From Sulfolobus sp. E5-1-F (GTDB lineage: Archaea > Thermoproteota > Thermoprotei_A > Sulfolobales > Sulfolobaceae), in contig NZ_CP045687.1 in assembly GCF_009601705.1 (NCBI RefSeq), positions 966,630 through 1,030,629 on the forward strand: 64,000 bases of DNA, in the 5' to 3' direction. Under the pieces are notes generated by a model, which saw only the letters and a list, made by a program, of their open reading frames with translations, was not told the origin of the DNA and made no database searches. Positions 5,069-33,780 of this stretch are shown here, piece after piece; the first letter of the stretch is position 1; every line of letters starts with the position of its first letter. The position numbers were made by a program, and so were the translations under genes.

Positions 5069-5152
5069 GTTGAATAGGATAATATAATGATGTTGTTTTT
5101 AATGCTTTTAGTACATACCGAGAGTCAGTGAGGTTGAATAGGATAATATAAT
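5069..5152. repeat. Two-repeat CRISPR-like pair, 64-bp register
   Basis: GTTGAATAGGATAATATAAT occurs exactly at 5069-5088 and 5133-5152, separated by 44 bp of unrelated sequence. A few more bases match to the left (GAAG/GAGG). Repeat length and 64-bp period match the A2-A6 units, but the sequence matches none of their repeats. MITE copy 2 begins at the end of the second repeat. Confidence 0.5.
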
Positions 5153-5329
5153 TAGTAGTTTCATGAAAATGACGTATAGTATGTAACGTTTAATTTTTAC
5201 AATGCAAGATTTAAGGACATTTATACCATACATGCTTGGTATATTTACTATTATTTAAATCTCATTAAAGAGAATATATGTTAGTATTTAAGGTTTAAGG
5301 GATTTGAGGTAAATTTGCGTAAAGGGCTA
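5153..5329 (+). mobile_element. MITE copy 2
   Basis: Same element as at 886-1054, same orientation. It begins TAGTAGTTTCATGAAAATGA, and its right end is diverged (AAAGGGCTA instead of AAAGTACTA). No target duplication is recognisable. Confidence 0.65.
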
Positions 5330-5558
5330 ATCAACCGTAACTCCATCAATAGGATATATTTCTTACCTAGACAATTCCAATCTAATTTTTTGTCTTAGCG
5401 TTAGGAGGATATTTCTTACTTAGACTGTTCCTCTGGTACTAATTAACCATTCCATCTGGAAATGGATTATTGCCCAATTAAGCATACTTCATGACTGACA
5501 AGTTTACTATTGAGATATGTATATGTGTTTACACATTGTATTTTAATAATAAAAAATA
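5330..5558. other. Intergenic gap with a diverged direct repeat
   Basis: No credible reading frame. A diverged direct repeat is present: AGGATATATTTCTTACC near 5351 and AGGATATTTCTTACTTAGAC near 5406, 53-55 bp apart. This may be an older relic like the 5069-5152 pair, but the match is weak. No cas1 remnant was recognised, although a cas1 might be expected next to cas2-cas4. Confidence 0.3.
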
Positions 5559-6053
5559 TTAATATTGAGCGTATTGACATTGCCTTTTGTATAGGCAAGA
5601 AGGGCAGAATTTGTTTCTGTAGGCCTTAAAATTCTCTTCAATGACTTTTTCTAACTCCTCAGCTAGATAATCTAATACCATAGCGTTAGGAATTAATAAG
5701 TATCCAATATCTTCGCCTATTGTTGTAGGTAACAATAGAGTGGCACAAGCTTGACCATATTTCATGCACATGTATGCATAAATTACTGCTCTTCCTATTA
5801 AATGTCTTATCATTCCTCTCGTTATGGTCATTTCAATAACAAGGTAATTATCGTATACATAGTCTGGAATTCCCACTATTTTGTACCAATCTTTTCCAAC
5901 TTTAAATAGGATATCCATTGGTTTGCTTTCGAAGTTAATGTCGTTTTTCCTTTCATATTCTAATCTTATATCGTGGATAGCTTTGTGTTTGTATATAGTG
6001 AAATACGCTCTCTGTTTGCATATTAATAAGTCATCAAATATCCTCGCCGGCAA
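5559..6053 (-). CDS. cas4: Cas4-family protein, degenerate nuclease site
   Basis: Cas4 proteins are Fe-S PD-(D/E)XK nucleases that trim prespacers and select PAM and orientation with Cas1-Cas2. I start it at the TTG at 6053, overlapping the end of cas2 by about 20 bases. The open frame runs up to 6314, but that part is the shadow of cas2. The resulting 164 aa fits a small Cas4. Seen: an N-terminal Cys in LLICKQRAYF and a C-terminal cluster CPSCLYKRQC, together four Fe-S cysteines. The nuclease core GIPDYVYDNYLVIEMT keeps the Asp, but the usual E-x-K reads E-M-T, and the usual Q-x3-Y motif is not evident. It may be structural or inactive. It lies directly downstream of cas2 with no cas1 beside it. 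Confidence 0.7.
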   Translation of the reverse strand: MPARIFDDLLICKQRAYFTIYKHKAIHDIRLEYERKNDINFESKPMDILFKVGKDWYKIVGIPDYVYDNYLVIEMTITRGMIRHLIGRAVIYAYMCMKYGQACATLLLPTTIGEDIGYLLIPNAMVLDYLAEELEKVIEENFKAYRNKFCPSCLYKRQCQYAQY

Positions 6054-6324
6054 AGTTAACTTGTAAGTGGTGTCTTGATACCTTATCCTTGGAGATGATA
6101 AGAGTTCTTCCGAAATCAGCGTTTTGAACTGGGATGATAGCTGCGGTATCTCTTTCTTCAAGAAGTTTAGCAATCTTTTCCGATAGGAAGAGGGATCTAT
6201 TCCAAGATAATCTTCCTCCATATACTGATCTTGAAATATACGATAAACCGTAACGGCGTAGGAGCCTCCTAACCTTACCTCTAACCTTCTCATCTGATAT
6301 GTCATATGCGACAACCACGTACAT
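6034..6324 (-). CDS. cas2: CRISPR-associated Cas2, first copy
   Basis: Cas2 dimers bridge two Cas1 dimers in the spacer integrase. The 96-aa protein begins MYVVVAYDISDEKVRGKVRR, with the conserved N-terminal beta strand and Asp (YDIS), then RRLLRRYGLSYISRSVYGG and a central IIPVQNADFGRTLII strand. Length is normal for the family. It is clearly different from the second Cas2 at 39843-40136, so two adaptation lineages are present. Its start is an ATG preceded by an AT-rich region with possible TATA elements near 6345-6360. It is first of a two-gene unit with cas4; no cas1 is seen on either side within the window, so its partner may be the remote Cas1 at 40144-41046 or lie outside. Confidence 0.9.
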   Translation of the reverse strand: MYVVVAYDISDEKVRGKVRRLLRRYGLSYISRSVYGGRLSWNRSLFLSEKIAKLLEERDTAAIIPVQNADFGRTLIISKDKVSRHHLQVNFAGEDI

Positions 6325-6414
6325 ATAATTAGTAACTACTTTTAAGTATTTATAAATTTAGATAAAATAGTGATGACTATTAAGAGTATGGTTAACAATT
6401 TAATTAATTTAAAA

Positions 6415-7137
6415 TTAATTGTGTAAGTTGCTTTTATTGTAGAAATAAATACTTTTTGTTTAGTGTAATTTTGGTGAACATGGGATTTTCGTTGGTGAGG
6501 ACTTGATAATCAAGTAGAGTATTTCGGTTTTAACCCAAGTTATTTTAATGTTTAGAGCATATTAACCTTAAGCCTAGGTTTCACATTAGGGAGGAGATAG
6601 CGTTAGGCCTAGTTATCTAGCTGGCTTATCCTCTTGGAGGACTACGTTACCACATTCCACCTTACTCTATTATTACAAGAGGCTTGGCAGGGTTAAGTAT
6701 GTAGTATCCTTGAGTCTTTACACCATTGACGAGACTTTTACGTTAAGGGGAATTATTATTACGTTTGGATCGTTAGGGATGTTATAACTATTCCTTTCTT
6801 CATGGCTTGAGGAGTGGTCTTCGCGTGTTAACATGAGGGGGATTGATAGTTAGGAGGATTGATCGAGTGATTTACTTGCACGATTACCAGCCTATAATCC
6901 CTTTGACTGGTCTAATGTTGGGCATAATATGGTTTGGTAGGAGGGATTACGCTGAACAAGAACATTAAAGGATAGACTCTCCTCTATGGACTTTCACTTG
7001 GAGTTCCAATATGTTAGCGAGTTGGCTCTTGATCTTCTTCCTAATCTACAACATTCTTTATATTCAAATTTAGTGGATAAGGAAGTGATAATTATAAATG
7101 CAAATGTTTTAAATGCATAAAATCGTTGACCACACTC
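6415..7137 (+). mobile_element. Decayed insertion sequence, remnant 1
   Basis: The DNA matches the remnants at 10717-11178 (same strand) and 58309-58992 (opposite strand). The transposase frame is broken by stops and frameshifts. Readable peptides include an IALGLV-WL segment followed by WIVRDV and, later, FDWSNVGHNM and LVDKEVIII. The right end is TTGACCACACTC. The left part carries a damaged form of the TGGGTGAGCA inverted repeat seen at 56427. I cannot assign an IS family by eye. Confidence 0.6.
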
Positions 7138-7297
7138 CGTAAATTTACCTTAAATCTCTTGAACACCAACCTGGATTCTCTATAAGAAGATTTAGATAGT
7201 CTAAAATAGTTGAAGTGCACATAGTATAAATACACCTTCCCTTGCATTTGAGAATTATACGTCATATATACTACACGTAATTTTCAGAAAACTACTA
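7138..7297 (-). mobile_element. MITE copy 3, truncated, abutting the IS end
   Basis: Inverted copy of the MITE. The TAGTACTTTA end is cut off exactly where the IS right end stops, and the opposite end (CAGAAAACTACTA) is intact. Either the IS inserted into the MITE, or recombination joined the two. Confidence 0.6.
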
Positions 7298-7502
7298 TTC
7301 GTGAAGTTTCTAACCCTTCCCTTACTTGTTATCAAATGTTCTTTCTTTTGATACATCTATCAAATTATCCCTACACTTACGTCACACTCATATTCGAGAA
7401 TATTTTCACAATCTTCAGTTGAATGATATGTTCTACCATTTTCTTACATAAAGCTCCTCAGAACGTTTTACGAGTTTTTGGTTACCTCTAGATAAAGATG
7501 AG

Positions 7503-7573
7503 CAATTATAAAAATTTCTAGCCTAATATAATTTTACTATGTGTCAATTAGATGACTGCGTGAGAAAACTCCT
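7503..7573 (+). repeat. Solo end of a second insertion sequence
   Basis: A roughly 70-bp motif (AATTTCTAGCCTAATATAAT, then a GATGACTGCGTGAGAA block). It recurs at 47240-47313 (inverted), 48197-48264, near 49740-49790 and 59085-59139. At 49570 and 59021 it directly follows a transposase C-terminus, so it is probably the 3' end of that element. Confidence 0.45.
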
Positions 7574-7693
7574 AAAAAGAGGGTAGAGTACTTTTCAAAT
7601 CCTTATGTGGATTTATCCTCAGAGTAATAACCCATCTTTACACTGGCTTCTTTCAATTCGTTTAGTGACTTACCATATACTGTTATTTCTTTA

Positions 7694-8129
7694 ATTTTAA
7701 ATAATTTTTAGTGTTAGGTTGTGGAATTAAACGTGAAATTTACGTGCTTATAAATCTCTTTAAAAAGATAACTGTTCGTTAAAATGAAAAGTAATCAAAA
7801 AAATTAGGGTTAGAATGAAACAATTATTTACGACATGTAACGAATTTAGATGGAATCTCTCCAATAGACGTAACTATAAAAGTTCGAGTTGATTAAGGAG
7901 TTTAAAAGTGTAAGAATTCGAGTCTAGATGCGACCAAAACGAATCATTATAAAATAATTGAACGTATATAAATGATAACCCATGTTTCAATTAAACAAAA
8001 AATCCTTGCGACCACAATTTGTTAAATTAATTACAACTAAAATTGGTCGCAAGGTAGAAAGACGAGAGAAATGAAAAACTTATAAGCAAGAAACGAGAAA
8101 TAACAATATAGAAGTATAAAAATACACCA
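7694..8129 (+). promoter_or_regulatory. Leader of CRISPR array A2
   Basis: About 436 bp, highly similar to the regions beside A3, A4 and A5 and partly to A6. It contains a perfect 10-bp inverted repeat, CCTTGCGACC (8004-8013) and GGTCGCAAGG (8045-8054), enclosing 31 bp, with an extra GATGCGACC half-site upstream. The last 45 bp before the first repeat are nearly invariant. Leaders hold the crRNA precursor promoter and the signals that direct Cas1-Cas2 to the first repeat. Confidence 0.85.
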
Positions 8130-10705
8130 GATAAATCCTACAAGGAATTGAAAGACTAGAATCATTTCTATTGATATTGGAAATATTTATGTTCGATAAA
8201 TCCTACAAGGAATTGAAAGATAAAATTACGAAAATAATAAAGTTCCCGAAAAGCAGATAAATCCTACAAGGAATTGAAAGATAACTGTGTTTATGTGTTA
8301 GCGTTTTGGAATGAGGGGTATGATAAATCCTACAAGGAATTGAAAGCATTCAAATCCATTTAACTTCAACACTTCCTCAACAGCATGATAAATCCTACAA
8401 GGAATTGAAAGAAGCTTCTCACCGCAATCCAGCTTCTGATATCGGCAAACGATAAATCCTACAAGGAATTGAAAGGTATCAGTAACATCTAGTGGTATGG
8501 TGACGTTAACGGTATGATAAATCCTACAAGGAATTGAAAGTTTCAACACAAACGCTATCGCTTTATCGTTAACTTGATAAATCCTACAAGGAATTGAAAG
8601 TTTTCTTATTCTATTTAATATTTAATATCTTTTTCTAAGATAAATCCTACAAGGAATTGAAAGAGAGCATAAACCGCATCATCTAAAATTTTTTGCTTTG
8701 AAGATAAATCCTACAAGGAATTGAAAGAACACATTGGCAGTGTTATGCTATCACCCACGTTGTCACTGATAAATCCTACAAGGAATTGAAAGAAATAAGA
8801 AGTTATCCATTTGTTATTTGTATCGGACGATAAATCCTACAAGGAATTGAAAGACAATATACTCAATTTCAATTTCATGTTTTTGACTTATAGATAAATC
8901 CTACAAGGAATTGAAAGGCTCTTTCTCTAGCTGTTTATCTTTGCGCTTTTCAATTTTGATAAATCCTACAAGGAATTGAAAGCACAGTAACTGTAGCAGC
9001 AGCGCCAACTTGAATGTTTACCGATAAATCCTACAAGGAATTGAAAGTAGCGTTACAGATGTTGTACCTCCAGCATTTCCACTTGTCGATAAATCCTACA
9101 AGGAATTGAAAGTATAACTTTAGAACTTTTTCAGAATATGTCTGAGCACTCGATAAATCCTACAAGGAATTGAAAGTTTAAAATAATAATATGTCATTAG
9201 ATAATTATTTAGGATAAATCCTACAAGGAATTGAAAGTACAAAAAAACTACTCTATCTTTGAGCTGAACTGCGAGAGATAAATCCTACAAGGAATTGAAA
9301 GTTAATTATTTCTACCGAGTCTGTTGACAAGTCCCTAGGATAAATCCTACAAGGAATTGAAAGGTTGAGGAGATTAACGCGTTGCCTCCTATAGCGTCCC
9401 TAGATAAATCCTACAAGGAATTGAAAGTATGCCAGCTCTTCTCAGACTAACATTTGGAATTACTATTGATAAATCCTACAAGGAATTGAAAGAGTTTGAA
9501 TTTTTCACAAAGTGTATCTATATTCATTTTTATGATAAATCCTACAAGGAATTGAAAGTCCACTTCACTTACGATTAAATCTTCATTTAAAAAACGTTGA
9601 TAAATCCTACAAGGAATTGAAAGGATGACATAATAAATATTGTCAGAAGAACTGAATACCCAGATAAATCCTACAAGGAATTGAAAGTTTCTTTAGCTCT
9701 TCTACGGGTATGGATACTCGCTTAGACAGATAAATCCTACAAGGAATTGAAAGAAAACATCGTCCTCATCCAGATAGAAATGATTTGTAATGGATAAATC
9801 CTACAAGGAATTGAAAGTCCCATACTTTCCATGACCACTGCCCAAGATTAATGATAAATCCTACAAGGAATTGAAAGTAAATGTGTCATTCCCAACGCTT
9901 ACTGTAACAGATAAATCCGCAAAGGAATTGAAAGAAGGCCTACGGTCTGAAGGGAGCGCTTTAAGCCCCATTTTGATAAATCCGCAAAGGAATTGAAAGG
10001 AAATGACACAGGGATTGATGCGAATAAATACGCACTACGATAAATCCCGAAACGAATTGAAAGCGTATCACTGTTGAGTTCGATGATGCGACATTCAGCA
10101 TGATAAATCCACAAAGGAATTGAAAGTTTAACGTTTCAGTGCAACACATATTTCAGTCAGCCCTCAATAAATCCACAAAGGAATTGAAAGATTGCATTGG
10201 CAAAACTTGTGCTAGGTGTTATTCTCAACTGATAAATCCACAAAGGAATTGAAAGGACTTTTTTGCCATCACATTCTTTTGTTGGGTACAGCATGATAAA
10301 TCCACAAAGGAATTGAAAGATACTTCTGTTCATGCTGGAAAGACAGTAGAAATACAGGGTAAATCCTAAAAGGAATTGAAAGTTAGCGCTTGTCTGATGA
10401 CTTCGCTTGTCGTCATATCGTGCGATAAATCCTAGAAGAAATTGAAAGACAAAATATACGGCAGTGCGCGCTGGGTACATCACAAGTGATAAATCCTAGA
10501 AGAAATTGAAAGACATCATCCCATTTTGCTCTAGGAGATGGCATCAACCATGATAAATCCTAGAAGAAATTGAAAGACGAATTTGCTATCCTATTTATTG
10601 TTGGCTTATTCTATTGATCAATCCCGAAACGAATTGAAAGAAAAACATAGTATTGCCTCCGCTTCAAGCTGCAGTCTCAAGATAAATCCACAAAGAAATT
10701 GAAAG
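8130..10705 (+). CRISPR. CRISPR array A2, 41 repeats with changing repeat versions
   Basis: Forty-one 25-nt repeats with spacers of about 36-41 nt. The first 28, next to the leader, start GATAAATCCTACAAGG and end AATTGAAAG. From repeat 29 (9910) on, the middle changes in blocks: CGCAAAGG twice, CGAAACG, ACAAAGG (as in A3/A5), TAAAAGG (as in A4, at 10358), TAGAAGAA three times (10424, 10488, 10552), CGAAACG again (10616), and ACAAAGAA last (10681). The 8-nt handle ATTGAAAG never changes. The leader is at 7694-8129. The array stops abruptly against an IS remnant at 10717. Confidence 0.98.
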
Positions 10706-10716
10706 ATTAGATTACC

Positions 10717-11178
10717 TTGTTATACTATTATAAGAGGCTTGGTAGCGTTAAGTACGTTGTATCCTTGAGATACTATTCACGAGACTCTTGCGTTAGGGTA
10801 ATTATTATTACATTTGGATCGTTAGGGATGTTGTATTGAGGAGTGGTCTTCACGTATTAATTGTTAACATGAGGGGGATTGATAGTTAGGAGGATCGATC
10901 GAGTGATTTACTTGCATAATGGTTTACCAGCTTATAGTACTTTTGACTGGTTTAATGTTGGGCATAAGATGGTTTTGTAGGAGGGATTACGCTGAACAAG
11001 AACATTAAAGGATAGACTCTCCTCTATGGACTTTCACTTGGAGTTCCAATATGTTAGCGAGTTGGCTCTCTACCTTCTTCCTAATCTACAACATTATTTA
11101 CACTCAAATTTAGTGGATAAGGAAGTGATAATTATATATGCACATATTTCAAATGCATAAAATTGTTGACCACGCTCG
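10717..11178 (+). mobile_element. Decayed insertion sequence, remnant 2
   Basis: Same element and orientation as 6415-7137, starting mid-transposase (TTATACTATTATAAGAGGC) 11 bp after the last A2 repeat and ending TTGACCACGCTC. Array A2 therefore lies between two direct copies of one IS relic. The element has several stops and is not coding now. Confidence 0.6.
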
Positions 11179-11306
11179 AAATGTAGAATCAATTACTCTA
11201 ATCTAGTCTATAGAAACAAATTGAAATCACAAAGGAGACCTGAATGGTCCTTTCTTTTTGAAAATCCTTATAAATTGGTCAGTTTAATATTAAATACGGT
11301 GAAATT

Positions 11307-11738
11307 GTGGATTTAGATTATAAGGTTAAGGGGGCTATGGATATTTGTGAGATCTTTATAAGTAGTAGAAAAAATTTTAAAGAGAGTGAAGAAGATGAGT
11401 CAAGTGAGAATAAGAGAAAGGGTTACTTATCTAAAACTTTGATTAGGAAGATCTATACTATTGTAACTTCTCATGAGAATCCTAAGGAGGCTATTCCGGA
11501 TCTGTTGTATCTAGTAGCTAGGAATGAGTCTAAAGAAAATGGGGGTACTGAATTGTGGAGTTTTGTAAGTAAGGTGATTGAGCTTATTAATAACAATACA
11601 CTAGAAAATGTTAAAAAGTACCTTGAGGGAGCTGTTATGGTCTTTTACGTATTAGAGGGATTCAGTGAGAAGGGAAGAGATATTGAAAATATTTGTAACC
11701 TTTTGAAAGGTGAGAGGAGTGTCGCAAAAGTTTCCTAA
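11307..11738 (+). CDS. Type III-D small subunit (Csm2/Cas11-like)
   Basis: A 143-aa, mostly helical, charged protein with a GTG start, first of a five-gene operon. No RAMP glycine-rich loop is present. Its size, helix content and position beside three Cas7-like genes suggest the small subunit (Cas11/Csm2 type) that forms the inner filament of type III complexes; the sequence itself carries no motif I can name. AT-rich elements (CTTATAAATTGG at 11268, TTTAATATTAAAT at 11283) provide a TATA box. It overlaps the next gene by a few codons. The eight-gene arrangement resembles the Sulfolobus solfataricus Csm (III-D) cluster as I remember it. Confidence 0.6.
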
Positions 11739-12504
11739 TTTACTTCACGCTTCTCTTAATTATAGACGAGTAGTGTCTTTTGAAATGCATACTATTGAAT
11801 TTCTACGAGTTGGAGAGAGTAAGGTGATAGATATTGGTTCTCCAGATTTGCCCATTCTTAAAATTAAGGAGCAAAAGGGAGGAAGTATTAGATATAAACC
11901 TATTATACCGGGTTCATCAATAAAGGGGGCGGTAAGGAGTGAGTATTCTAGGGTTTTAAGTGGTCTTCCCGAGGATACTCTTAAATCTCTCTTCGGTTAT
12001 AGTAAGCTTTTTACCGAGAAGGATTTAAAAAGTAATTATGACTCTTATGAAATTTTTAATATTATTGTTAATAGTATGACAAATAAGGAGAATAATGAGG
12101 TGGGATTACTTGATTTACTTTTCGGTAGTGATTTCTTCGCATCTCCCACTATTTTCACGGATGCAATTGTATCTAATGAAGCTGAAGAATACATAGGGGA
12201 AAGATATCATATTAGGATTGATGTGGATAGGGATGCTGTGATGGAAAATAGTTTGCTAAACGTTGAAGCTGTTTATCCTGGTACTAGGTTTACTTTCAAA
12301 ATTATCTATAATTCTCTGGACTTTGGTGTAAAAGATGAATCTCCAGTAGATAAGGCTTTCAACGTATTAGTATCATCATTTCTAGATAATAGGGAAATGT
12401 TTTTAGGCGGTTTTAAGAGTAGGGGTTATGGTTTAGTTCGATTGAAAAAAATCGATGATAGAAAGTTTACTCCAGAGGAATTGGTGGGTGTTAAAAATGG
12501 TTGA
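11719..12504 (+). CDS. Type III Cas7-like RAMP (Csm3-like) 1
   Basis: Cas7-family RAMP proteins form the crRNA-binding backbone of type III complexes and cleave target RNA with a conserved Asp. Seen: the N-terminal RAMP strand, then [19 protein letters not shown], the classical '[11 protein letters not shown]' motif, and the C-terminal glycine-rich loop [15 protein letters not shown] prefer the GTG at 11719, which follows GGTGAG by 5 nt; a GTG at 11710 also exists. About 261 aa. It overlaps the preceding small-subunit gene and the following RAMP gene, so translation is likely coupled. Which of the Csm3- or Csm5-like positions it fills cannot be told from sequence alone. Confidence 0.8.
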
Positions 12505-13306
12505 AGTGAATTTCAAGACTTATTATATTTTAACTAAAATATGGGGGAAGATAACTAATAAATCTCCCATTAGAGTGGGTGGAACAAGGGGGTATGGTAT
12601 TGGTGAGCCGGATTTACCGATTTTGAGAACTCCAGATAGGAGAGCTGTAATACCCGGCTCTACTCTTAAGGGCGTTTTTAGGAATAGTTTAGCTAGATAT
12701 TTGAAAAATGTTAATCCAGAAAGCGATTTGGCGTTTGCCTTTGGTGGGAATAGGGTGATCGGTGGTAGTAAGGGGAAAAATAACCTAGCCTTAGGATCTG
12801 CTGTTATTTTTTCTGATTTCACTACTAGGCAACCTATAGACGTTTATGAAAGAACTCACATAAAGATCGATTTGAGTAAAGGTTCAGGGCGTCCTTTTCA
12901 AGTTGAATATGTTCCAGAGAATAACGAATTTGAGGGCACTATTATAGGTAGAAATTTGCCATTAAGTGACATGAGTGGAATGATTTACGTAGTAAAGAAT
13001 TTAATGGATCTAGAAGTTGTGAGGATTGGCGGTTTTAAAAGTAGAGGGTATGGAATTGTTAGATTTGATGTTGCAAAAGTTGAAGTTTATTTACCCTCTA
13101 ATAGCGTTGAGTTTGAAACAAGATTGGGGATTTTGAGTAGGGGTATAACAAGGAAGATCTCCATTAAGGTGGAAAATAATAGTCTTAAAGAAAATGAAAA
13201 AAGTTTCACTATTATTAGCTCATCTTCTAATGAACTTTTCAATAAATACGAAATAAATGTAGATTCATTCTATAACGTAGGAAAAACTATGTTAGAAGGT
13301 GGCTAA
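12497..13306 (+). CDS. Type III Cas7-like RAMP (Csm3-like) 2
   Basis: A 269-aa protein starting at the ATG at 12497, preceded by GGTGGGTG; the longer open frame from 12455 overlaps the previous gene and is not needed. Motifs: [20 protein letters not shown] followed by TLKGVFR (RAMP motif), and [13 protein letters not shown] (glycine-rich loop). The middle contains [18 protein letters not shown], the region that in Csm3-like proteins forms the thumb and active-site loop. Paralogous to the genes on either side, which suggests a backbone built from different Cas7 subunits, as described for Sulfolobus III-D, instead of one repeated subunit. Overlaps its upstream neighbour by 8 bp and the next gene's region at its end. 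Confidence 0.8.
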
Positions 13307-13307
13307 A

Positions 13308-15879: not shown

Positions 15880-15889
<10 letters not shown>
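15329..15889 (-). CDS. Short Cas7-like RAMP of the III-D complex
   Basis: A 186-aa RAMP-fold protein between cas10 and the Csx10-like gene, overlapping both (10 and 35 bp). Motifs: [17 protein letters not shown] near residue 48 and a C-terminal [13 protein letters not shown] loop. It is shorter than the plus-strand Cas7 paralogs but complete at both ends, with ATG at 15889. It probably occupies one backbone position. In total the III-D-like cluster has three Cas7-like genes on the plus strand, this one, one Cas5-like, two small helical proteins and Cas10. Confidence 0.75.
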
Positions 15890-18438
<2,549 letters not shown>

Positions 18439-18452
18439 AGATAATAAACATT

Positions 18453-18539
18453 ATTCCACTATATAGGAGATATACATAATAGAAAAGTTGACCAACTAAT
18501 GGACTTCCCTTGGGAATATTCCACTCTATAGGAGATATA
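18453..18539 (-). promoter_or_regulatory. Duplicated cas10 promoter element, 65-bp register
   Basis: ATTCCACTATATAGGAGATA at 18453 and ATTCCACTCTATAGGAGATA at 18518 are near-identical (22 bp, one change) and 65 bp apart. On the minus strand they contain CTATATAG, a plausible TATA box for cas10. The repeat length and spacing equal one CRISPR unit, so this may be an off-target spacer insertion that duplicated the promoter. Confidence 0.5.
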
Positions 18540-18632: not shown

Positions 18633-21533
<2,901 letters not shown>

Positions 21534-22401: not shown

Positions 22402-22478
22402 GGTAAACAGATAGAATAAAAAGAGGGGAAAAAGTCATATTAATAAAAAAACTAAGTAAGAAGCAAGGGGAAAGTTAG

Positions 22479-24156: not shown

Positions 24157-24427
24157 TTTGCTATGTGAAGAGGGGTAATACAACACATAATATAATGGGT
24201 TATAACAAAAGTTGCTCAGTGAATTAGGGTAGTACGTGCTGGTTCTGCGGTAGATCTCTGGGTCCATAATTATAGTTGCTCAGTGAATTAGGGTAGTACA
24301 TATGAAATTGATTTTGTAGTTGTTTCTAACACCTATTCTGTTGCTCAGTGAATTAGGGTAATACAACAGTTTGGCAAAAATATTTATGAAAGAGCATGAG
24401 TCCGTTGCTTAGTGAATTAGGGTATAC
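24157..24427. CRISPR. Small CRISPR-like array with a novel repeat
   Basis: Repeats of 24-25 nt that start GTTGCTCAGTGAATTAGG and end GTAGTAC or variants: 24211-24235, 24275-24299, 24340-24364 and 24404-24427, plus a diverged one at 24157-24181. Spacers are 29, 39, 40 and 39 nt and unrelated to each other. Unit size equals that of A2-A6, but the repeat resembles neither repeat family of the big arrays. No leader like theirs adjoins it. The repeat nearest the coiled-coil gene abuts that gene's TATA box (24435-24445). Confidence 0.75.
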
Positions 24428-24465
24428 ACAAATCTTTATATATTTCCTTTTTCTGAGTGGTACTT

Positions 24466-25005: not shown

Positions 25006-25449
25006 TTGACCTTGAAAAATGAACTTTTCGCATTTGTACTAAATCGTTTTCTACAGTTTTAGGCCACTTGCTACTTTCCTCTATAATACCTTATTTCTCC
25101 TTTTCTGTTTGTTTTATCTATAAAAATTATATAAATTTCTTCATAAATTTTCATATACATTATTCATTCTCTTCTTCTATTGGATAGCAGGTTAACCAAT
25201 TCTCACTAGCTCTTCACATTTTTTGTTCTATAGGATGTAGAGCATAAAGCAACTTCACTTGTTTGCATTATTCCTCGGATATGAGGAAGAGCGTTGGTCT
25301 TCATATATATTATCTTGCAATTGAAGGTTGGGGATATTAAGGTAAAAAATCTGCCAGAATACTTGGCCACTTTGAGGCGTAATCTGTTGATTTGAATATT
25401 AAGGAAAATCCTATACCACTTAACGTTAGAAGAAGAATTAATTACCCTA
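25006..25449. other. Intergenic gap after the coiled-coil gene
   Basis: AT-rich, with no credible frame. TTCTATTGGAT near 25176 and TTCTATAGGAT near 25226 are similar but too short to call a repeat. Confidence 0.35.
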
Positions 25450-25687
25450 TAGTAGTATCCTGGAAATGACGTATACTATATTAACGTTTAATTTTTCCTA
25501 GATAAGATAAGGTGTATTTATCAATGTATGATTAAAGATTGAAATGGCAATGGTTTGGTTTTGTTGGTCTCTTTAGTATTTATCAATGTATGATTGAACC
25601 ACTTACGATTACTTAAATCTCCTTGACGAGAAGTTATTTTGTTATTTAAGGTTTAAGTGATTTCAAGTAAATTTACGTAAAGTACTA
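25450..25687 (+). mobile_element. MITE copy 4 with a 6-bp target duplication and an internal insertion
   Basis: Ends TAGTAGTATCCTGGAAATGA and AATTTACGTAAAGTACTA. ACCCTA flanks it on both sides (25444-25449 and 25688-25693), an exact 6-bp target-site duplication. It is about 238 bp instead of about 160 because 62 bp with a 20-bp duplication lie inside at 25514-25595. Confidence 0.75.
25514..25595. repeat. Direct repeat flanking a 42-bp insert inside MITE 4
   Basis: GTATTTATCAATGTATGATT is present at 25514-25533 and 25576-25595, with 42 unrelated bases between. Other MITE copies have this region once, so the 62 bp were gained here. A 20-bp duplication around a spacer-sized insert is what Cas1-Cas2 integration produces. 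Confidence 0.65.
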
Positions 25688-25770
25688 ACCCTATTAGATT
25701 TCAGCTAGAGTCAAACCCTTAGCAATGGTAAATAAATTAATGATTTGAATGAAAACCTCCAATCCATGAG

Positions 25771-25859
25771 CGTTTCAGAAGAGAAGTGAATTGCGTGAGA
25801 TGGATATTTTTGCCCATTTATGGGATACAGTAACCTTTCTCAAAGAGAAGTGAATTGCA
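25771..25859. repeat. Two-repeat CRISPR-like pair
   Basis: The 25-mers at 25771 and 25835 share AGAGAAGTGAATTGC at their right ends and partial matches on the left, 64 bp apart. A weaker third trace (GAGGAAAAGAAGTGCG) lies near 25892. The sequence is unlike any array repeat here. Confidence 0.45.
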
Positions 25860-25939
25860 AAAGGCTGTGTATATCCTTTTTATTTTTAAGAGAGGAAAAG
25901 AAGTGCGTAAAGGGAACATCAGTGTAATGTAAGTGATCA

Positions 25940-26226
25940 AAAGAACCTCTTATAGAACTAAAAGTGTAATGATGTAATTTTGGGGAAAATTTTTGAAAAG
26001 TTGAAGAACATGCCATTGAACTAAAAGAAGTATTAGCTGGCCAATTTTCCTAAATTTGAGAGAAGAGTGTGTACATATATGCTATAGAACTAAAAGGCCC
26101 ATGGGGCTGGCGAATGCTAACAGACGCTAGGACGCTGTATAAATGATATAGAACTAAAAGTTGAAGTTTTCCTTTTCTTGGTTAGGATTTCAGACGTTTC
26201 ACGTATACATGCTATAGAACTAAAAG
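25940..26226 (+). CRISPR. Degenerate CRISPR-like array, repeats ending ATAGAACTAAAAG
   Basis: Five repeat ends at 25964, 26027, 26096, 26160 and 26226 (spacing 63, 69, 64, 66). The best copies read ATGCTATAGAACTAAAAG and the others differ by a few bases. The inter-repeat sequences are unrelated. From memory, Sulfolobus solfataricus arrays use repeats ending TATAGAATTGAAAG, so this may be a decayed array of that family, or an independent one. No leader like that of A2-A6 is attached. Confidence 0.65.
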
Positions 26227-26469
26227 AAGACTGGAGTTTTTATGAGTACATCGTGCAATGCGATCAACAGTATTTGATTTAAGATAAAGAATAGGAGAAG
26301 GAAAGATTACTTTACGTTTGATTTATGTTAACTCCATATTCTTAGGCAAATGTTTGTAGAAATTGAAAAAAGTGGTTTACTAGTTGGGCCGTTAAATTCG
26401 GATAAATCAGCGTAAGAAAGAACACCAAAGGAAAGTGAACTTCCGAGTGTTGTAATGCAAATTTAGATA

Positions 26470-26646
26470 TAAATTACTATTATATATATATATAGACATA
26501 ATACCAGTAGCTTATTATATAATGTGAGGACGCTTAACTTGAGTTGTTCTAATACATCCTAAATAGACGCGTTTAGACTATTATATATAACAATGTAAAG
26601 ACGTCAGAAAACTATCATGATAAATTACTATAGACATAATACCAGT
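26470..26646. repeat. Diverged direct repeats upstream of crn1
   Basis: TAGACATAATACCAGT occurs at 26493-26508 and 26631-26646 (138 bp apart). TTATTATAT...GAGGACG near 26512 resembles TATTATATATAAC...AAGACG near 26579. This may be a decayed array with two units, or a promoter-region duplication. Confidence 0.35.
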
Positions 26647-26678
26647 TTATTTATAAGTTACTTCGATTTATTTCACTT

Positions 26679-27212
26679 ATGGCAAGATTAGTAGCAACTT
26701 TAGGGAAATCTCCAGGTGGAATAGCTGAGACTTTAGCAAACTTAAGTTCCGGCAATTACTTAGCCCCTTTTGAGACTAAGGAAGTTAAGATAAACGAACT
26801 TATCGTGATAAGGACTGCAGAGGTTATGGAGAGTTATTATTTCCTGAAAACCATACTTTTGTGTTGTCTAGATTTCACAAACATTAGGGAAGTAGGGCTT
26901 CCATTTGATGATATTTCATCCCCTCAAGATTTCCTAACTGTTAGGGAAACTGTTAGAAAAGTTTTAAGCACTGGGGATTATTTAGACTTCTCTGGAGGAA
27001 GAAAGGCAATTACTGCAGCTGCTGTATTAGCTGCGAGGGATGTTGGTGCGCATTTAGTTACAACAATTATTGACCAAAGCGATTACATCAGAATGAATAA
27101 GAGATATGAGGAATTGAAGGAGAGGGCTTTATCAGTTTACAATAAGGGAGAGTGTCTTAGTTACTTCTGCGATTTAATGTCATCTAAAGCTAAGACCATT
27201 ATATTCTTCTAG
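26679..27212 (+). CDS. crn1: CRISPR ring nuclease Crn1
   Basis: Crn1 enzymes are CARF-domain dimers that cut cyclic tetra-adenylate (cA4), ending the type III antiviral signal. The 177-aa protein begins MARLVATLGKSPGGIAETL, matching the Crn1 nucleotide-binding start as I recall it from Sso2081 (ATLGTSPGG), with the Ser of SPGG in the known active-site position. It has DFSGGRKAITAAAVLAAR in place of the family's D-TGGRK block. No effector domain follows. It has its own promoter: TTTATAAG at about 26648-26655, 24-31 bases before the ATG, so a leaderless transcript is expected. It stands apart from both type III operons and may serve all Cas10 proteins in the cell. Confidence 0.88.
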   Translation: MARLVATLGKSPGGIAETLANLSSGNYLAPFETKEVKINELIVIRTAEVMESYYFLKTILLCCLDFTNIREVGLPFDDISSPQDFLTVRETVRKVLSTGDYLDFSGGRKAITAAAVLAARDVGAHLVTTIIDQSDYIRMNKRYEELKERALSVYNKGECLSYFCDLMSSKAKTIIFF

Positions 27213-27557
27213 GAATGGGGAAAAGTTCAGACCTTGACGTTAGCTATTCTCATTTTTAAAAATAATGAATGCAGACCTTAAAGAGAAGCATGGATGAAGT
27301 GATTAAAAATTACGTGGATAATTTAAACAAAAATTGTTGATTTTTGATCATCATCTTCCCTAGTCTAAAAATCTCCTTACATACGAACTTTTCTTCTATT
27401 TTACATTTTGAAATTTAGTCTTATTGTATTTTATTTATTACATAATTTTCTCCAAAGGTAATATATATACTAATGTCCTCTCAACCTATACTAACAAACT
27501 TCTTCTTATTATTATTATTTGTTTACTATTTCTCCTTTTTCCCCGTCATATACTCTA
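27213..27557. other. Convergent gap, nothing recognised
   Basis: AT-rich sequence between the convergent crn1 and cas4 genes. T-rich runs near 27520-27540 could terminate either transcript. No repeat or mobile element was seen. Confidence 0.4.
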
Positions 27558-28115
27558 TTAATCCACATAAGCCAAATTTCCCTTTATCTTAGGTCTACAG
27601 AAAGTGTAAAACCCACAATTATAACACTTCCTCGCATCTTGAACAACTTTCACTCTACCATTCATAGCCTCCCTTATCTTACTTAAAACACCCTCAACAT
27701 ATCTTCTCTCAGCGTAATTGTAATTTAACCTAACGATTTCCTTCAGACTCACATAATATATCAACCCTTCCTTTACATTAATCCCATTCATATCCATTAG
27801 GTAAAGGTAATATTTCATTTGCAACTTATGATCATACCTCTTCCTCCCACTCTTAACGTCAAGGGGAACCCAATAATTAGGGTAAGTCAGTACGTAATCC
27901 GGAGAGCCGATCAAATCCTTATACCTAAAAATAGGTTTCCCAATAATATTTAATGGCCTTAAAGTAGCGTATAGAAAGTTCATAACCTTATCCTTTTCAA
28001 CTCTCTCCCCCTCGATCATAGCCTCACTAACCCTCTCAGCAAACCCCATGCTCTCAAGTCTCACTATTTGAGGACAATACGCAAAGTGCTTTATTGTAAT
28101 ACCACTTATCGTCAT
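27558..28115 (-). CDS. cas4: Cas4 nuclease of the I-A adaptation module
   Basis: A 185-aa Fe-S nuclease that trims prespacer ends before Cas1-Cas2 integration. Seen: an N-terminal Cys in FAYCPQIVRLE; the nuclease core GSPDYV...WVPLDVKSG with Asp and the D-x-K pair; QMKYYLYLM as the Q-x3-Y motif; and a C-terminal CYNCGFYTFC cluster completing the Fe-S site. Unlike the Cas4 at 5559-6053, the catalytic set is intact. It lies 13 bp downstream of csa1 in the same unit. cas1-cas2 are not adjacent but 11 kb away, so the usual csa1-cas1-cas2-cas4 cluster is split by array A4 and the interference genes. Confidence 0.92.
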   Translation of the reverse strand: MTISGITIKHFAYCPQIVRLESMGFAERVSEAMIEGERVEKDKVMNFLYATLRPLNIIGKPIFRYKDLIGSPDYVLTYPNYWVPLDVKSGRKRYDHKLQMKYYLYLMDMNGINVKEGLIYYVSLKEIVRLNYNYAERRYVEGVLSKIREAMNGRVKVVQDARKCYNCGFYTFCRPKIKGNLAYVD

Positions 28116-28128
28116 TACCCATCACAAA

Positions 28129-29004
28129 TTAGGGATGACAAACACGGTAAAACATACAATCCCTTTCACAATCCTTAGCTATTCCAGGGTCAATCCCCTT
28201 ATCCATTATGTCTTGAGCCTTATCCCTCATATCTAAAAACTCACTCCTAATGGCATCAGAAATGGGAACCAACTTACAATTACTCCTCACATCCCTATCT
28301 GTCACATTAACGTAACACAGATACCCGTAATCTATCGGTATCTCATACTGACTCTCGATCGCTAAAGCGTATCCAGCTAGAGACAACTCATGAGCATACC
28401 TATACTTACCAGTCTTCATCTCAGCTATTAATGGAAGATGAGGAACAAAGGCGTCAACCCTCAAATTGGTTAAACCCAAAAACGAACCATCTACTGGGAA
28501 CTCAACGTAAAAAGGAACAACTTGTGAAACTAAGGAATCCCTAGTCAAGTTAGTAAACCTACTCCTAACCCTATCCAATTCGGCAGAGTAAATATTAGTA
28601 ATGTGATCCCACAAAACCTTAGCGTATTTAGCATCCTCATCCTTCAAGTCCTTAAGTAAAGAGTAAAACTCATCACCCATCAACGTCCTCAGAGTACTCC
28701 CATCAATACCATCCTTAGAGTAAATCAACCGCTTAACAGTTTCCACACCAAAAGCGTAAACCATGTGAATAAGCGAACCTTGAAGAATTTGCTTACCTAT
28801 ATCCCCCTTAAATCCCTTCACTTTAAGGTAAATATTCCTCAAAGTACTGCAGTAATTTAGGTCAGAAACAGAAACCTGAGAAAGAGACCTAGTGTAAACC
28901 GGTGGTTCATTCCAATTCCATCCCCTTAACTCCTCATCCACATTCTTCGGCAACTTCTTAAGTCTCTTCGACAGCAACAATATATCCGAATAAGTAAAGA
29001 ACAC
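28129..29004 (-). CDS. csa1: Csa1, Cas4-like adaptation protein of type I-A
   Basis: Csa1 is an archaeal Cas4-related Fe-S nuclease needed, with Cas1, Cas2 and Cas4, for spacer acquisition in Sulfolobales. The 291-aa protein starts MFFTYSDILLLSKRLKKL at a GTG (29004), followed by GWNWNEPPVYTRS, a family hallmark. Nuclease residues: LRVDAFVPHLPLIAEMKTGK (Asp and E-M-K). Cysteines: one in LNYCSTLR, and CERDCMFYRVC at the C-terminus. On the minus strand TTTATAAATAG (29034-29046) provides a TATA box about 30-40 bases before the GTG. In related hosts this promoter is controlled by Csa3a, which is not in the window. Confidence 0.93.
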   Translation of the reverse strand: MFFTYSDILLLSKRLKKLPKNVDEELRGWNWNEPPVYTRSLSQVSVSDLNYCSTLRNIYLKVKGFKGDIGKQILQGSLIHMVYAFGVETVKRLIYSKDGIDGSTLRTLMGDEFYSLLKDLKDEDAKYAKVLWDHITNIYSAELDRVRSRFTNLTRDSLVSQVVPFYVEFPVDGSFLGLTNLRVDAFVPHLPLIAEMKTGKYRYAHELSLAGYALAIESQYEIPIDYGYLCYVNVTDRDVRSNCKLVPISDAIRSEFLDMRDKAQDIMDKGIDPGIAKDCERDCMFYRVCHP

Positions 29005-29197
29005 AATATAGTATGATAATACAACAATTAATAACTATTTATAAAAAGAAGTACGATAGGGTTGAGTATATACTATCAAAGCAAATTTTTGCAATTAATA
29101 ATTATAAAAACTACTACACTACCCTCTTGCAATTAACGCTTATGAGATTATGATTAAGCGACTCCAAACCCTTTGGGGACTCGAAAACAATTATGAT

Positions 29198-29373
29198 TAA
29201 TAATTTCATTAATATGACGTACAGTATGTGAAGTTTAATTTTTCCAATATATGACAAGGTATATTTACACTATACACACTTGACGTATTTACGATTATTT
29301 AAATCTTCTTTAAGAGAATTTACGTTAATATTTAAGGTTTAAGGGATTTAGGGCAAATTTGTGTAGAGTAGTA
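29198..29373 (+). mobile_element. MITE copy 5
   Basis: Recognised by TAATAATTTCATTAATATGA at the left end and GTGTAGAGTAGTA at the right, with the conserved interior (TTATTTAAATCTTCTTTAAG). Both ends are diverged and no target duplication remains. It lies 76 bp upstream of the A4 leader. Confidence 0.65.
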
Positions 29374-29449
29374 GTATATTATATAAACCCTTTTGACTTT
29401 CAATTAGTTAAAAGATTTAGCATAATATTATAATATATTGTTATTTTTG

Positions 29450-29885
29450 ATTTTAAATAATTTTTAGTGTTACGTCGTGGGATTAAACGTAAGATTTACG
29501 TGCTTATAGATCTCTTTAAAAAGATAACTGTTCGTTAAAATGAAAATCAATCAAAAATAATAGGGTTAGAATGAAACAATTATTTATGATATGTGACGAA
29601 TTTAGATGAAATCTCTCCAATAAATATAACTATTAAAGTTCGATTTGATTAAGGGGTTTAAAAGTGTAATAATTCGAGTCTAGATGCGACCGAAACGAAT
29701 CATTATGAAATAATTGAACGTATATAAATGTTAACCCATGTTTCAATTAAACAAAAAATCCTTGCGACCACAATTTGTTAAATTAATTACAACTAAAATT
29801 GGTCGCATGATGACTAACCTAAAATAATGAAAAACTTATAAGCAAGAAACGAGAGATAACGATATAGAAGTATAAAAATACACCA
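29450..29885 (+). promoter_or_regulatory. Leader of CRISPR array A4
   Basis: Same leader as A2 over about 436 bp with scattered differences. Palindrome arms are TGCGACC (29763-29769) and GGTCGCA (29801-29807). It diverges from A2 for about 20 bp just after the palindrome, then matches again up to the first repeat. Confidence 0.85.
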
Positions 29886-32800
29886 GATAAATCCTAAAAG
29901 GAATTGAAAGTAAATGATGAGTGCCCAGAACAAATTATACCAATTATTAGTTGGATAAATCCTAAAAGGAATTGAAAGTCATTGTAATAAACAACCGCCG
30001 GATAAACTATTATATAGGATAAATCCTAAAAGGAATTGAAAGTTGTATTCATCGTACTAATATACTTCATCGTAGGTATCAGATAAATCCTAAAAGGAAT
30101 TGAAAGCCTTCGGAATTACAGTTATATACACAAACGCCTACACTATTATCGGATAAATCCTAAAAGGAATTGAAAGAAGTTGTCAAAAAGGTTGCCAAAC
30201 CGCAATCATTATTACGATAAATCCTAAAAGGAATTGAAAGAGAATTAAAAAGACAGCAGGTGGATTTATTAAGAAGAACGATAAATCCTAAAAGGAATTG
30301 AAAGATAAAATTAGGAGGTGTGTGTGAGTCTGTCTTTATTTTGTGATAAATCCTAAAAGGAATTGAAAGGTAATAAAACACTCCTACCCATAATTTATGG
30401 GTACCATCCTTGATAAATCCTAAAAGGAATTGAAAGATACTTATATGCGAAAAGAGTGGTTCTCGGAGAGTAAGGGTGATAAATCCTAAAAGGAATTGAA
30501 AGTTAAGTTGGTGGACCAGCTCGTTCCTCTGATAAAACCTATGATAAATCCTAAAAGGAATTGAAAGGCTATTCAGTCCAGTTTCAATTAGAGATGTGAT
30601 TATAGCGATAAATCCTAAAAGGAATTGAAAGATATACTCTGTTCTCTGTATATTCATTTTTGAACGACATCGATAAATCCTAAAAGGAATTGAAAGAATT
30701 ATTATAAGCATATTGAGAAATTGCAGAAGGATCCAAGATAAATCCTAAAAGGAATTGAAAGCTGACTTGTAATGGTACCATAACGCCAACAGTTTTTCAA
30801 TGATAAATCCTAAAAGGAATTGAAAGAGAACGATTGTTTGACGGCCGAGTTTAACCTAACGACGATTGATAAATCCTAAAAGGAATTGAAAGAGAAAATC
30901 AATGTTCAAAATCACAAAGAAAATATTTGTTGGATAAATCCTAAAAGGAATTGAAAGTATAACTTCCTCGATACTAATCATTCTCTTTCACCTCTTGGAT
31001 AAATCCTAAAAGGAATTGAAAGCTTAACGCATTTAGAGGCAATGCATTAAGTAAAATTAATCGATAAATCCTAAAAGGAATTGAAAGATATTGCCGAATT
31101 AGCCTTAAATATCTCATCTAGGAAGGATAAATCCTAAAAGGAATTGAAAGTTTGCTACCAGTTTCATCAAATTCACATAATAGTCTAGGATAAATCCTAA
31201 AAGGAATTGAAAGTCATACATCCTCACTTTCTTGCCGTTCAAATATATTTTCGATAAATCCTAAAAGGAATTGAAAGTTTGTTAGCTCTAAGTGAAGTCG
31301 CAACTTTTTAGTTTCGGGATAAATCCTAAAAGGAATTGAAAGGGTCTTGCACCCGATGGGAATGCTATTATTCGCCTGATTCTGATAAATCCTAAAAGGA
31401 ATTGAAAGAATCCTTATAATTATTATATTAATTATTGCCTTCGTGATAAATCCTAAAAGGAATTGAAAGAGATAAAAACAACATCTCATTTTTTACAAAA
31501 CTATTATGGATAAATCCTAAAAGGAATTGAAAGAAGTTGATGCTAACATTGCCAAATCCATCATCACCAGATGATAAATCCTAAAAGGAATTGAAAGGAG
31601 GTACCTAACACATTTGAGGGAGTGTTCATGTTCAGATAGGGTGATAAATCCTAAAAGGAATTGAAAGAAGATTGAAAGGAATTGCGACAGTGAAACTAAG
31701 GGATAGGATAAATCCTAAAAGGAATTGAAAGTAAATTTTTGCATAAATATTATAGTTTCTATCCATCACATGATAAATCCTAAAAGGAATTGAAAGCTTA
31801 TGTTCATAATCTCAATATCTAATTCTGTCAAATCGATAAATCCTAAAAGGAATTGAAAGCTTACGGGGTAACCCCCGTTATATGCCCTATGGCTAGCTGA
31901 AGGGATAAATCCTAAAAGGAATTGAAAGTTATATATTCTAACCCTTCTTGATAAAACCCTTGGATTGCGATAAATCCTAAAAGGAATTGAAAGGTACTTG
32001 TTCCCTTCAACACCCATCCGTGGGGGACCACCCATGATAAATCCTAAAAGGAATTGAAAGACATATGTCTCTACGATTGTTGATCCAAGAGTTGTGATAG
32101 GATAAATCCTAAAAGGAATTGAAAGTGGACTTCCTTATGCCAATATGCCCACTGTAATTAAGAAGATAAATTCTAAAAGGAATTGAAAGTACGTCTACTT
32201 CAACTAAAGATATAAAAGCTTTTCGCTTGATAAATCCTAAAAGGAATTGAAAGGCAATAATCTCAGTGTATACTCTTTCGCAAACTAAGTACGCATGATA
32301 AATCCTAAAAGGAATTGAAAGTAAGAATTGCCTAACAATTCGTTGCACAGCATAATCATGATAAATCCTAAAAGGAATTGAAAGCACAAAATATAGCGAT
32401 ATATTACACACCTGTAACACTATCGATAAATCCTAAAAGGAATTGAAAGGATTATCATTCATCTAACGCCGTCAACACCAAGCCCACCACGATAAATCCT
32501 AAAAGGAATTGAAAGAAATAGATGCTTACTATCTCCAATGCTCTGGGGGAGATGTTGATAAATCCTAAAAGGAATTGAAAGTCAAACGGTGGCATCAGTT
32601 GGTGGATAACGGGTGTACCCAGATAAATCCTAAAAGGAATTGAAAGGGCCACCACTCCTCTCGCAAATTCAGTTATAGTTAATCCGATAAATCCTAAAAG
32701 GAATTGAAAGTTTTTCCACAACTACCGTATTTTCTTCGATTATAATGATAAATCCTAAAAGGAATTGAAAGTCGTCATACACATGGAGCCTTGCATACTC

Positions 32801-33159
32801 TGTGTAGTTAGGATAAATCCTAAAAGGAATTGAAAGCTATCTCCCTCAGCAGTAACAATGTAAAAATAGCGATAGGATAAATCCTAAAAGGAATTGAAAG
32901 CTAGCCATCTGAATTACTCGCATTATTTTGTCCGATAGCACGATAAACCCATAAAGGAATTGAAAGACAATAGTTCTGTATCTGCATCCAATACTGCTTA
33001 ACACCAAGATAATTCCACAAAGGAATTGAAAGGAGAAAACTAGTGGAGGAGAGACTACATTATATTGTTATGCTAAATCCTAGAGGGAATTGAAAGAAAT
33101 ATTGGAATAAAGATAGAGGGAATACTGTTTCTAGGATAAATCCTAGAGGGAATTGAAGG
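29886..33159 (+). CRISPR. CRISPR array A4, 51 repeats
   Basis: Fifty-one 25-nt repeats starting GATAAATCCTAAAAGG and ending AATTGAAAG; mean unit 65 bp. Repeats 1-47 are uniform apart from one T at 32165 (AAATTC). The leader-distal four differ: CCATAAAGG (32942), TTCCACAAAGG (33008), and TAGAGGG with two different starts (33072, 33135); the last ends TTGAAGG. A further diverged copy, GATAGATCCTATAACTAATT, lies in register at 33201. The array lies just upstream of, and in the same direction as, the interference operon. Confidence 0.98.
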
Positions 33160-33415
33160 CTTATGGATTAGATTACAAAGCGGCCTCTAATGATAATTTA
33201 GATAGATCCTATAACTAATTAATAGTTGAAATAAATATTCAAGTAACCTAATATTAACCATAGTTAGTAGTCTTGTAATCGAGAATTCGAAAGTGACTAG
33301 CATAAATATATTCGATCATGATGCTTACACGATCATTCTCTTTTTTATCTATACGCAAGGGAATTGAAATTTGAGGAGATGTGAAAAGGTTTATGTGTAA
33401 AAGTAGTGAGTTTTT

Positions 33416-33707
33416 CATAAGAGTGATCATTCTAAGCCTGTTAATCCATATGGGTTCGCATTTAGAACAATTAACTCTATGCTTAAAATTCAGCCTGCTT
33501 ACTGAAAAGTCCAATACATTGCTATTTCTGGCTTTAAGAAATTTAGGCAATTGAGAAACTACAAGTTAAAGAGGATTGCTAATGATAGCAGCTTACTCCT
33601 TGGTTTGATGACGAGATCGGTGATCAACACTAAAGGAGGAAGAAGTGAATATTTTCATACTCCAGTATATAAGCACTTAATTTTGTCAAGGATTGGATCT
33701 AACTAAC
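33416..33707 (+). pseudogene. Short broken gene of unknown family
   Basis: A frame with one internal stop reads FHKSDHSKPVNPYGFAFR ... KIQPAY-stop-KVQYIAISGFKKFRQLRN ... NTKGGRSEYFHTPVYKH and ends in TAA at about 33707. The composition is protein-like over about 95 codons, so it is probably the remnant of a real gene, perhaps from a mobile element. I do not recognise the family. Its 3' end contains the first repeat of the 33652-33740 pair. Confidence 0.4.
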
Positions 33708-33740
33708 TATTCTCGTCTTTCATACTCCAGTGTATACGCA
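33652..33740. repeat. Two-repeat CRISPR-like pair, 66-bp register
   Basis: TTTCATACTCCAGTATATAA (33652) and TTTCATACTCCAGTGTATAC (33718) form 23-bp repeats with two changes, 66 bp apart, around a spacer-sized insert. The first copy is coding sequence of the remnant gene (FHTPVYKH); the second lies after its stop. Confidence 0.5.
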
Positions 33741-33780
33741 GTGAAGAATTATTCACTGACTATCTGATATACTTTGAATC

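Follow-up and report, generated by a model that had tools for sequence, protein, structure and literature searches.

Spacer-sized inserts between short duplications near Sulfolobaceae cas loci: a probable natural trail of off-target Cas1-Cas2 integration

The stretch analysed here (the window) comprises 64,000 nucleotides of the 2.54-Mb genome of Sulfolobus sp. E5-1-F (G000; NZ_CP045687.1, contig C1, positions 966630-1030629) and carries cas genes and ordinary arrays of clustered regularly interspaced short palindromic repeats (CRISPR). Outside these arrays lie seven intergenic sites, A to G, with inserts of about 40 bp between direct duplications of 16-28 bp that are 62-69 bp apart, and these sites are very probably (about 0.92) products of off-target spacer integration by Cas1-Cas2. 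The initial annotation had picked out the seven by their CRISPR-unit spacing and had proposed this origin; all seven are present, and the proposal is supported by an enrichment of such loci near cas genes (41 versus 2), by six inserts with sources elsewhere whose flanks are compatible with a protospacer adjacent motif (PAM), and by array-like insert lengths. Geometry, near-restriction to cas neighbourhoods, the six sources with their flanks, the lengths, a paralogous empty site and a bias in the end bases of the duplications are direct observations, from which Cas1-Cas2 emerges as the likely agent, the link with cas1 being a correlation of loci with cas neighbourhoods. Positions of six or seven digits below are those of the chromosome; shorter ones are those of the window unless another stretch is named.

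At each site a duplication of about one repeat length surrounds an insert of about one spacer length, as off-target integration would leave it, and the coding fraction is 0 at all seven when open reading frames (ORFs) of at least 90 aa are masked. Site A (5065-5152) has a 24-bp duplication (5065-5088 and 5129-5152, 96% identical, spacing 64) around a 40-bp insert (5089-5128), and is located on the leader side of array 1090-4726 at a distance of 339-426 bp, away from the array junction. A further pair at 5356/5409 has a spacing of 53 and falls outside the spacing class. Site B (18452-18539), about 94 bp outside array 18633-21533 on the side away from the leader, consists of a 23-bp duplication (18452-18474 and 18517-18539, 96%, spacing 65) around a 42-bp insert (18475-18516) and has a partial likeness to GCTAATCTCCTATAGAATTGAAAG. 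The duplication of site D (25514-25595) is perfect over 20 bp (25514-25533 and 25576-25595, 100%, spacing 62), with an insert of 42 bp (25534-25575). Site E (25773-25858) had been placed at 25771; the site itself stands, and its start is better placed in a first copy at 25773-25794, followed by the insert (25795-25835) and a second copy at 25836-25858, the two sharing 16 bp exactly at 25779/25843 and about 22-23 bp with one gap, at spacing 64. Site G (33653-33745) has a 28-bp duplication (33653-33680 and 33718-33745, 86%, spacing 65) around an insert at about 33681-33717, and lies about 430 bp beyond the end of array 29886-33225 that is distal to the leader, next to a degenerate 172-bp element copy. 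These five sites are given without strand.

Single-insert events predominate, and sites C and F have five units each. Site C (24157-24427) is a neo-array of the repeat GTTGCTCAGTGAATTAGGGTAGTAC, with a degenerate copy at 24157 and further copies at 24211, 24275, 24340 and 24404; spacings from 24211 on are 64, 65 and 64, the inserts measure about 29, 39, 40 and 39-40 bp, and the PAM-like end of insert 24300-24339 suggests the minus strand. Site F (25944-26226, plus strand) contains five degenerate repeats ending in AACTAAAAG that start at about 25944, 26008, 26077, 26141 and 26207, with ends 63, 69, 64 and 66 apart, and represents a neo-array or else the decayed form of an array related to GCTAATCTATTATAGAATTGAAAG.

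In the array-masked window, matches scoring at least 13 number 10 at distances of 60-69 bp, whereas the other 10-bp classes between 20 and 499 bp hold 0-3 each; the 10 are not independent, three coming from site C (24157) and two from site F (25940). A wider scan took intergenic matches scoring at least 15, with arrays and ordinary repeats masked and low complexity removed, and merged them to independent loci; it also dropped matches longer than 46 bp and runs passing the array rule, by which a uniform multi-unit neo-array could be masked. It covered the cas neighbourhoods of 14 genomes (the window genome, six of the same genus and seven of other Sulfolobaceae genera) and a far set, for which the window genome supplied 31 distant stretches of 20 kb, the genus genomes 20 stretches and two cas1-free genomes another 20, the distant controls being drawn from same-genus genomes only. 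Near cas, 220 kb of intergenic DNA held 41 independent loci at 56-70 bp, of which the window genome contributed 13, the six same-genus genomes 12 and the seven of other genera 16. They occur in 13 of the 14 genomes, the same-genus genome G002 having no locus in this class near cas. Far or cas1-free DNA gave 2 loci in 225 kb of intergenic DNA, one in the 31 window-genome stretches and one in the 20 genus-genome stretches, and at equal intergenic length the difference has a Fisher p of 9e-11.

The preference is for this spacing as well as for this location. Near cas in all genomes the remaining 15-bp classes hold 3 (26-40 bp), 6 (41-55), 0, 1 and 2 (71-115), 5 (116-130, twice the unit) and 2 loci (131-145), the four classes at 26-40 and 71-115 averaging 1.5. 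Within 880-1111 kb of the window genome there are 13 loci at 56-70 bp versus 1 (26-40), 1 (41-55), 0, 0 and 0 (71-115), 2 (116-130) and 1 (131-145); six loci lie beyond those of the window, all to its left, and sites cluster across the CRISPR region as a whole. Equal frequency at other spacings and such pairs in DNA without cas1, the two outcomes that the initial annotation had named as incompatible with its proposal, were both looked for and are absent: other classes hold 0-6 loci versus 41, and the 387 kb taken as 20 stretches from two genomes that have no cas1 match hold 0. Two order-level cas1 neighbourhoods (36 kb), outside the 41 and 2 totals, contain no loci, and a repeat-pattern scan of the genome contigs found nothing.

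These numbers leave chance repeats in AT-rich intergenic DNA with a negligible likelihood. The window is 66% A+T (34% G+C) and has low-complexity repeats, and smaller single-site regions are indistinct from their own shuffles, as chance would have it; yet 0-6 loci in other near-cas classes and 2 in distant or cas1-free DNA stand against 41, and shuffles of each region (100 each) yield means of 0.1-0.8 and maxima of 2-4 versus up to 17 observed matches. When 17 sites were checked with an ORF mask, 15 were wholly or mostly non-coding; the weak matches 1078511 and 1096044, half or fully coding, were dropped as chance.

Six inserts have a source elsewhere in their own genome (three in G000, two in a run of repeats in another Sulfolobaceae genome, G005, and one in G014), with identities of 88-100%, match edges 0-8 bp from the insert edges and a PAM-compatible flank at every source. 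Insert C2 of site C (24300-24339, minus strand) is a 40/40 bp copy of G000:C1:120668-120708 (minus strand), within a gene of 376 aa that appears thiolase-like by eye and lies about 870 kb away; the evidence is the genome-wide search, and the match in stretch L053, picked for holding this source, is not independent. The insert of site 933900 (933926-933963) matches at 93% over 40 bp (E 2.1e-10) a gene of 163 aa that resembles by eye the iron-sulfur subunit of a CO/xanthine dehydrogenase. The weakest of the six, insert 908182-908216 of site 908158, is 88% identical over 32 bp (E 1e-4) to a permease-like gene of its own genome, and matches at 90-92% over 26-30 bp in three relatives. The two G005 inserts match their own genome at 93% over 44 bp and 97% over 33 bp, in genes that by eye are threonyl-tRNA synthetase-like and amino-acid permease-like, and the G014 insert matches at 42/42 (100%).

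CCN is a PAM of Sulfolobus. Flanks in G000 are TCC (C2) and CCA for the two units of about 64 bp and GTA for the 59-bp unit; in G005 they are GTA for both units, one with a one-base ambiguity, and in G014 GTC is present at both ends. TCN is given for S. solfataricus loci A/B in a passage of PMC5815122 and GTN for cyanobacterial type I-D in a passage of PMC10212523, and both fit the observed flanks. A genome-wide search of 15 G000 inserts (A, B, four of C, D, E, four of F, G, 933900 and 908158; none from six further G000 sites) found a source for at least 3, with 40 of 120 candidates scored in one search. Ordinary spacers compared with 821 kb of chromosome (about one-third) gave no match over at least 25 bases (E 0.01) for any of 462; the contrast of 3/15 with 0/462 is suggestive and, with a one-third sample on the spacer side, not exact.

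A viral or plasmid origin of the inserts was considered and set aside for want of a convincing match in these searches. Inserts A, B, G and C1 had no convincing match in IMG/VR by exact 20-mers, and one further virus search returned only unrelated phages. Ordinary spacers seldom match viruses either (1 region for about 66 units; at least 4 of 78), so that a lack of viral matches is little informative.

Insert lengths parallel those of resident spacers, at about 40 or 35 bp. Mean ordinary spacers measure 38.8-40.1 bp in six long GATAAATCC and GCTAATCT arrays, 34.9-36.2 bp in three GTAACAACG arrays and 37.5 bp in a five-repeat array at 1023480, and most off-target inserts of G000 form two classes: inserts of 37-42 bp come with a spacing of 62-66, and inserts of 35 bp, at 908158, 908987 and 952497, with one of 58-59. 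Three inserts depart from these classes when simple boundaries are used: the one at 915316 (47 bp), which encloses part of an ordinary repeat, the one at 952424 (44 bp), and the 29-bp insert that comes first in site C. For the 35-bp class in G000 a type I-D system is the probable origin: a cas3 match near it fits I-D and is below the cut-off. In G005, I-D genes stand next to the sites, with csc2 scoring above its cut-off and csc1 and cas3 under theirs.

The targets are mostly unlike CRISPR repeats, which bears on whether the sites could be worn-out remnants of ordinary arrays whose repeats have mutated past recognition. The sites do sit among ten ordinary arrays, degenerate repeats exist at leader-distal array ends, site F ends in CTTATAGAACTAAAAG, near CTTATAGAATTGAAAG, and site B has TCTATAGGAGAT in common with a repeat variant. 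Yet the copies within A, B, D and G are 86-100% alike while the duplications are no nearer to canonical repeats than background: 10 G000 duplications average 7.4 versus 7.1 for random local 24-mers, 9 of the 10 having p >0.1, and membership in the canonical repeat families was rejected on this overall lack of likeness (F outside the test). Six insert sources are still 88-100% identical, and site D interrupts a copy (25448-25687, plus strand) of the dispersed 172-bp element, whose 9 other aligned copies are all without insert and supply a paralogous empty site. Decay of ordinary arrays is thus an improbable account of the sites as a group; B (18452) and F (25940) could have descended from repeat-like sequence.

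The AT-rich 172-bp element occurs at window position 886-1057 and in at least 39 other places in G000 (40 among the matches listed), is denser around the CRISPR region (24 stretches there versus 14 in 31 far stretches) and by eye contains or lies within 100 bp of 7 of 17 sites. It had been a candidate leader, being beside array 1090-4726 and several sites, and was rejected on its genome-wide dispersal. A lone partial GTTTTAGTTTCTTTTCGTT repeat outside arrays at G000:C1 915286-915400 sits within a duplicated stretch at the end of this element.

Target preference was assessed against the local intergenic background with 35 duplications picked by hand, from 32 of the 41 loci and 3 extra matches. 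Their end bases are G or C in 41 of 70 cases versus 26.0 expected (0/2000 draws), which suggests that the integrase has an intrinsic end preference at otherwise unrelated targets.

Direct repeats flanking an insert are also the usual mark of transposition, and transposable elements are common in these genomes. Target-site duplications of a transposable element, or replication slippage, are nonetheless very unlikely to explain the sites: the inserts, of about 29-48 bp, are mutually different and some match chromosome fragments elsewhere, no recurrent mobile insert with its own ends was found as an insertion sequence or miniature inverted-repeat transposable element would require, slippage is unable to import distant sequence, and the spacing peaks at 56-70 bp near cas loci.

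Several points weigh against off-target integration as the common origin. The 41-55 bp class near cas is likewise raised (6 loci), partly through short units in G005. The PAM call permits either end and three motifs, with a chance of 6/6 of about 0.0015 by our own estimate; 12 of the 15 G000 inserts have no source genome-wide (40 of 120 candidates scored in one search), and no convincing virus or plasmid match appears for the inserts among the matches listed (30 of 70 and 20 of 52 weak records). The empty form is known from paralogous element copies at site D and not from a strain-level case, the set of 35 duplications omits the 9 weaker of the 41 loci and adds 3 extra matches, and AAA[GC] near the duplication end (12/35 versus 3.9, p 0.0005) was picked after inspection of the list. 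Site B is close to a canonical repeat (p 0.04), and site F may be a decayed array. Confidence in off-target integration is not lowered, since ordinary spacers are mostly sourceless too and the enrichment numbers stand.

Longer runs show repeats that change along their length. The clearest wandering array is in G005 (stretch L114, 15160-16990, 1.8 kb), between cas1 and an ORF of 255 aa with no NCBIfam match; it contains 17 matches at spacing 55-68 with an identity of 14/20 or higher, some of them dependent on each other, where shuffles average 0.5 and reach no more than 3, with classes 41-54 (6) and 103-116 (7) likewise raised, and its repeat shifts from one end to the other. A run in G000 at about 952424-953100, upstream of a cas1 at 951470-952306, has 5 matches, where shuffles average 0.6 and reach 3 at most. 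Adjacent duplications overlap in some cases, by a few bases, as with 952424/952485 and 952497/952555 and at G005 L114 4938-5085, which may reflect a creeping target in which every new integration uses the edge of the previous duplication.

Taken as a mechanism, resident Cas1-Cas2 complexes would capture pieces of DNA measuring about 40 bp for the I-A type or about 35 bp for what is probably the I-D type, partly from the host chromosome and beside PAM motifs. The PAM-trimmed DNA would be joined by two staggered attacks to ordinary intergenic DNA of the CRISPR region, and gap filling would duplicate the target of about 20-28 bp on both sides, a normal reaction in an abnormal place. Most events would remain single, and some would gain further integrations at or overlapping the new duplication to give neo-arrays (24157-24427) and longer runs of changing repeat. 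The CRISPR region is presumably a hotspot through local enzyme concentration; clustering near CRISPR loci could reflect local enzyme supply, leader recruitment or tolerance in long intergenic stretches, and self-derived inserts may survive since the sites would make no working guide RNA. According to a passage of PMC5815122, S. solfataricus Cas1 and Cas2 integrate in vitro and require host factors for specificity.

The window contains type III RAMP, Cas10-like, cas4, csa1 and cas1 genes and a I-A effector operon, including cas1 at 40144-41067 (minus strand; one of three copies in G000) and an I-A cas4-like gene with csa1 at 27558-29004 (minus strand). A Crn1-type ring nuclease gene is located at 26679-27212, about 450 bp downstream of site F. 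Six ordinary arrays lie in the window and four further ones upstream. Self-comparison of the array-masked window recovers five copies of an I-A leader family of about 450 bp, none of which adjoins any listed site, and no site has a leader next to its first repeat as a canonical array would. Array 18633-21533 includes a perfect 63-bp T run (18911-18973), about one CRISPR unit long and possibly a sequence or assembly artefact, and array 41727-46772 has one repeat-spacer unit tandemly and exactly duplicated (64 bp x 2.4 copies, 43475-43628). At G000:C1 929032-940408, a further repeat type (GCTAATCTATTATAGAATTGAAAG and variants) forms two divergent arrays with an identical 226-bp leader end, present as inverted copies.

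To our knowledge, most of what is known of off-target integration comes from E. coli that overexpresses Cas1-Cas2, with a few natural candidates besides. Non-canonical integration and neo-CRISPR loci were reportedly described by Nivala, Shipman and Church in 2018, in Nat Microbiol 3:310, with few natural cases proposed, Sulfolobus islandicus among them. The present sites resemble those loci in having a spacer-sized insert between target duplications outside arrays, and differ in their 41 loci across 13 of 14 genomes, their two array-like length classes, six self-sourced inserts with PAM-compatible flanks, multi-unit neo-arrays and changing-repeat runs.

The same idea is cited in passages of PMC9456107 and PMC11788318. 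Ectopic acquisition at Streptococcus thermophilus CRISPR3 is alike in occurring off the leader end, with events that are placed within arrays in the relevant part of PMC7999890, whereas the insertions here are in unrelated intergenic DNA. In S. islandicus, excerpts of PMC9456107 state that I-A Cas1 binds stem-loop DNA in vitro without sequence specificity and propose that Csa3a restrains atypical integration outside arrays; that evidence is from the laboratory, and the present sites would be a natural genomic trace of such events. Off-target integration itself is already known; what is new is the scale, the self-derived inserts and the repeat-changing runs. Searches of open-licence literature, with few subscription papers among it, showed no report of such a scale, of two length classes, of host-derived inserts or of wandering repeats.

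The origin of new CRISPR arrays and of their repeat sequences is an open question, and array birth becomes testable from genomes alone through a trail that spans the family, in which inserts can be traced, flanks are PAM-like, sizes fall into two system-like groups and stages range from a single insert to wandering runs. The inserts may sample Cas1-Cas2 captures unfiltered by selection, given self-matches in at least 3 of 15 versus 0 of 462 ordinary spacers (one-third of the chromosome). As a tentative extension, for which the odds are somewhat less than even, the CRISPR regions of Sulfolobaceae might act as nurseries, in which stray Cas1-Cas2 integration keeps founding repeat units and overlaps let the repeat wander until a form favoured by Cas1 or the leader is fixed; new repeat families would be born in this way, and self inserts would be kept as units that yield no working guides.

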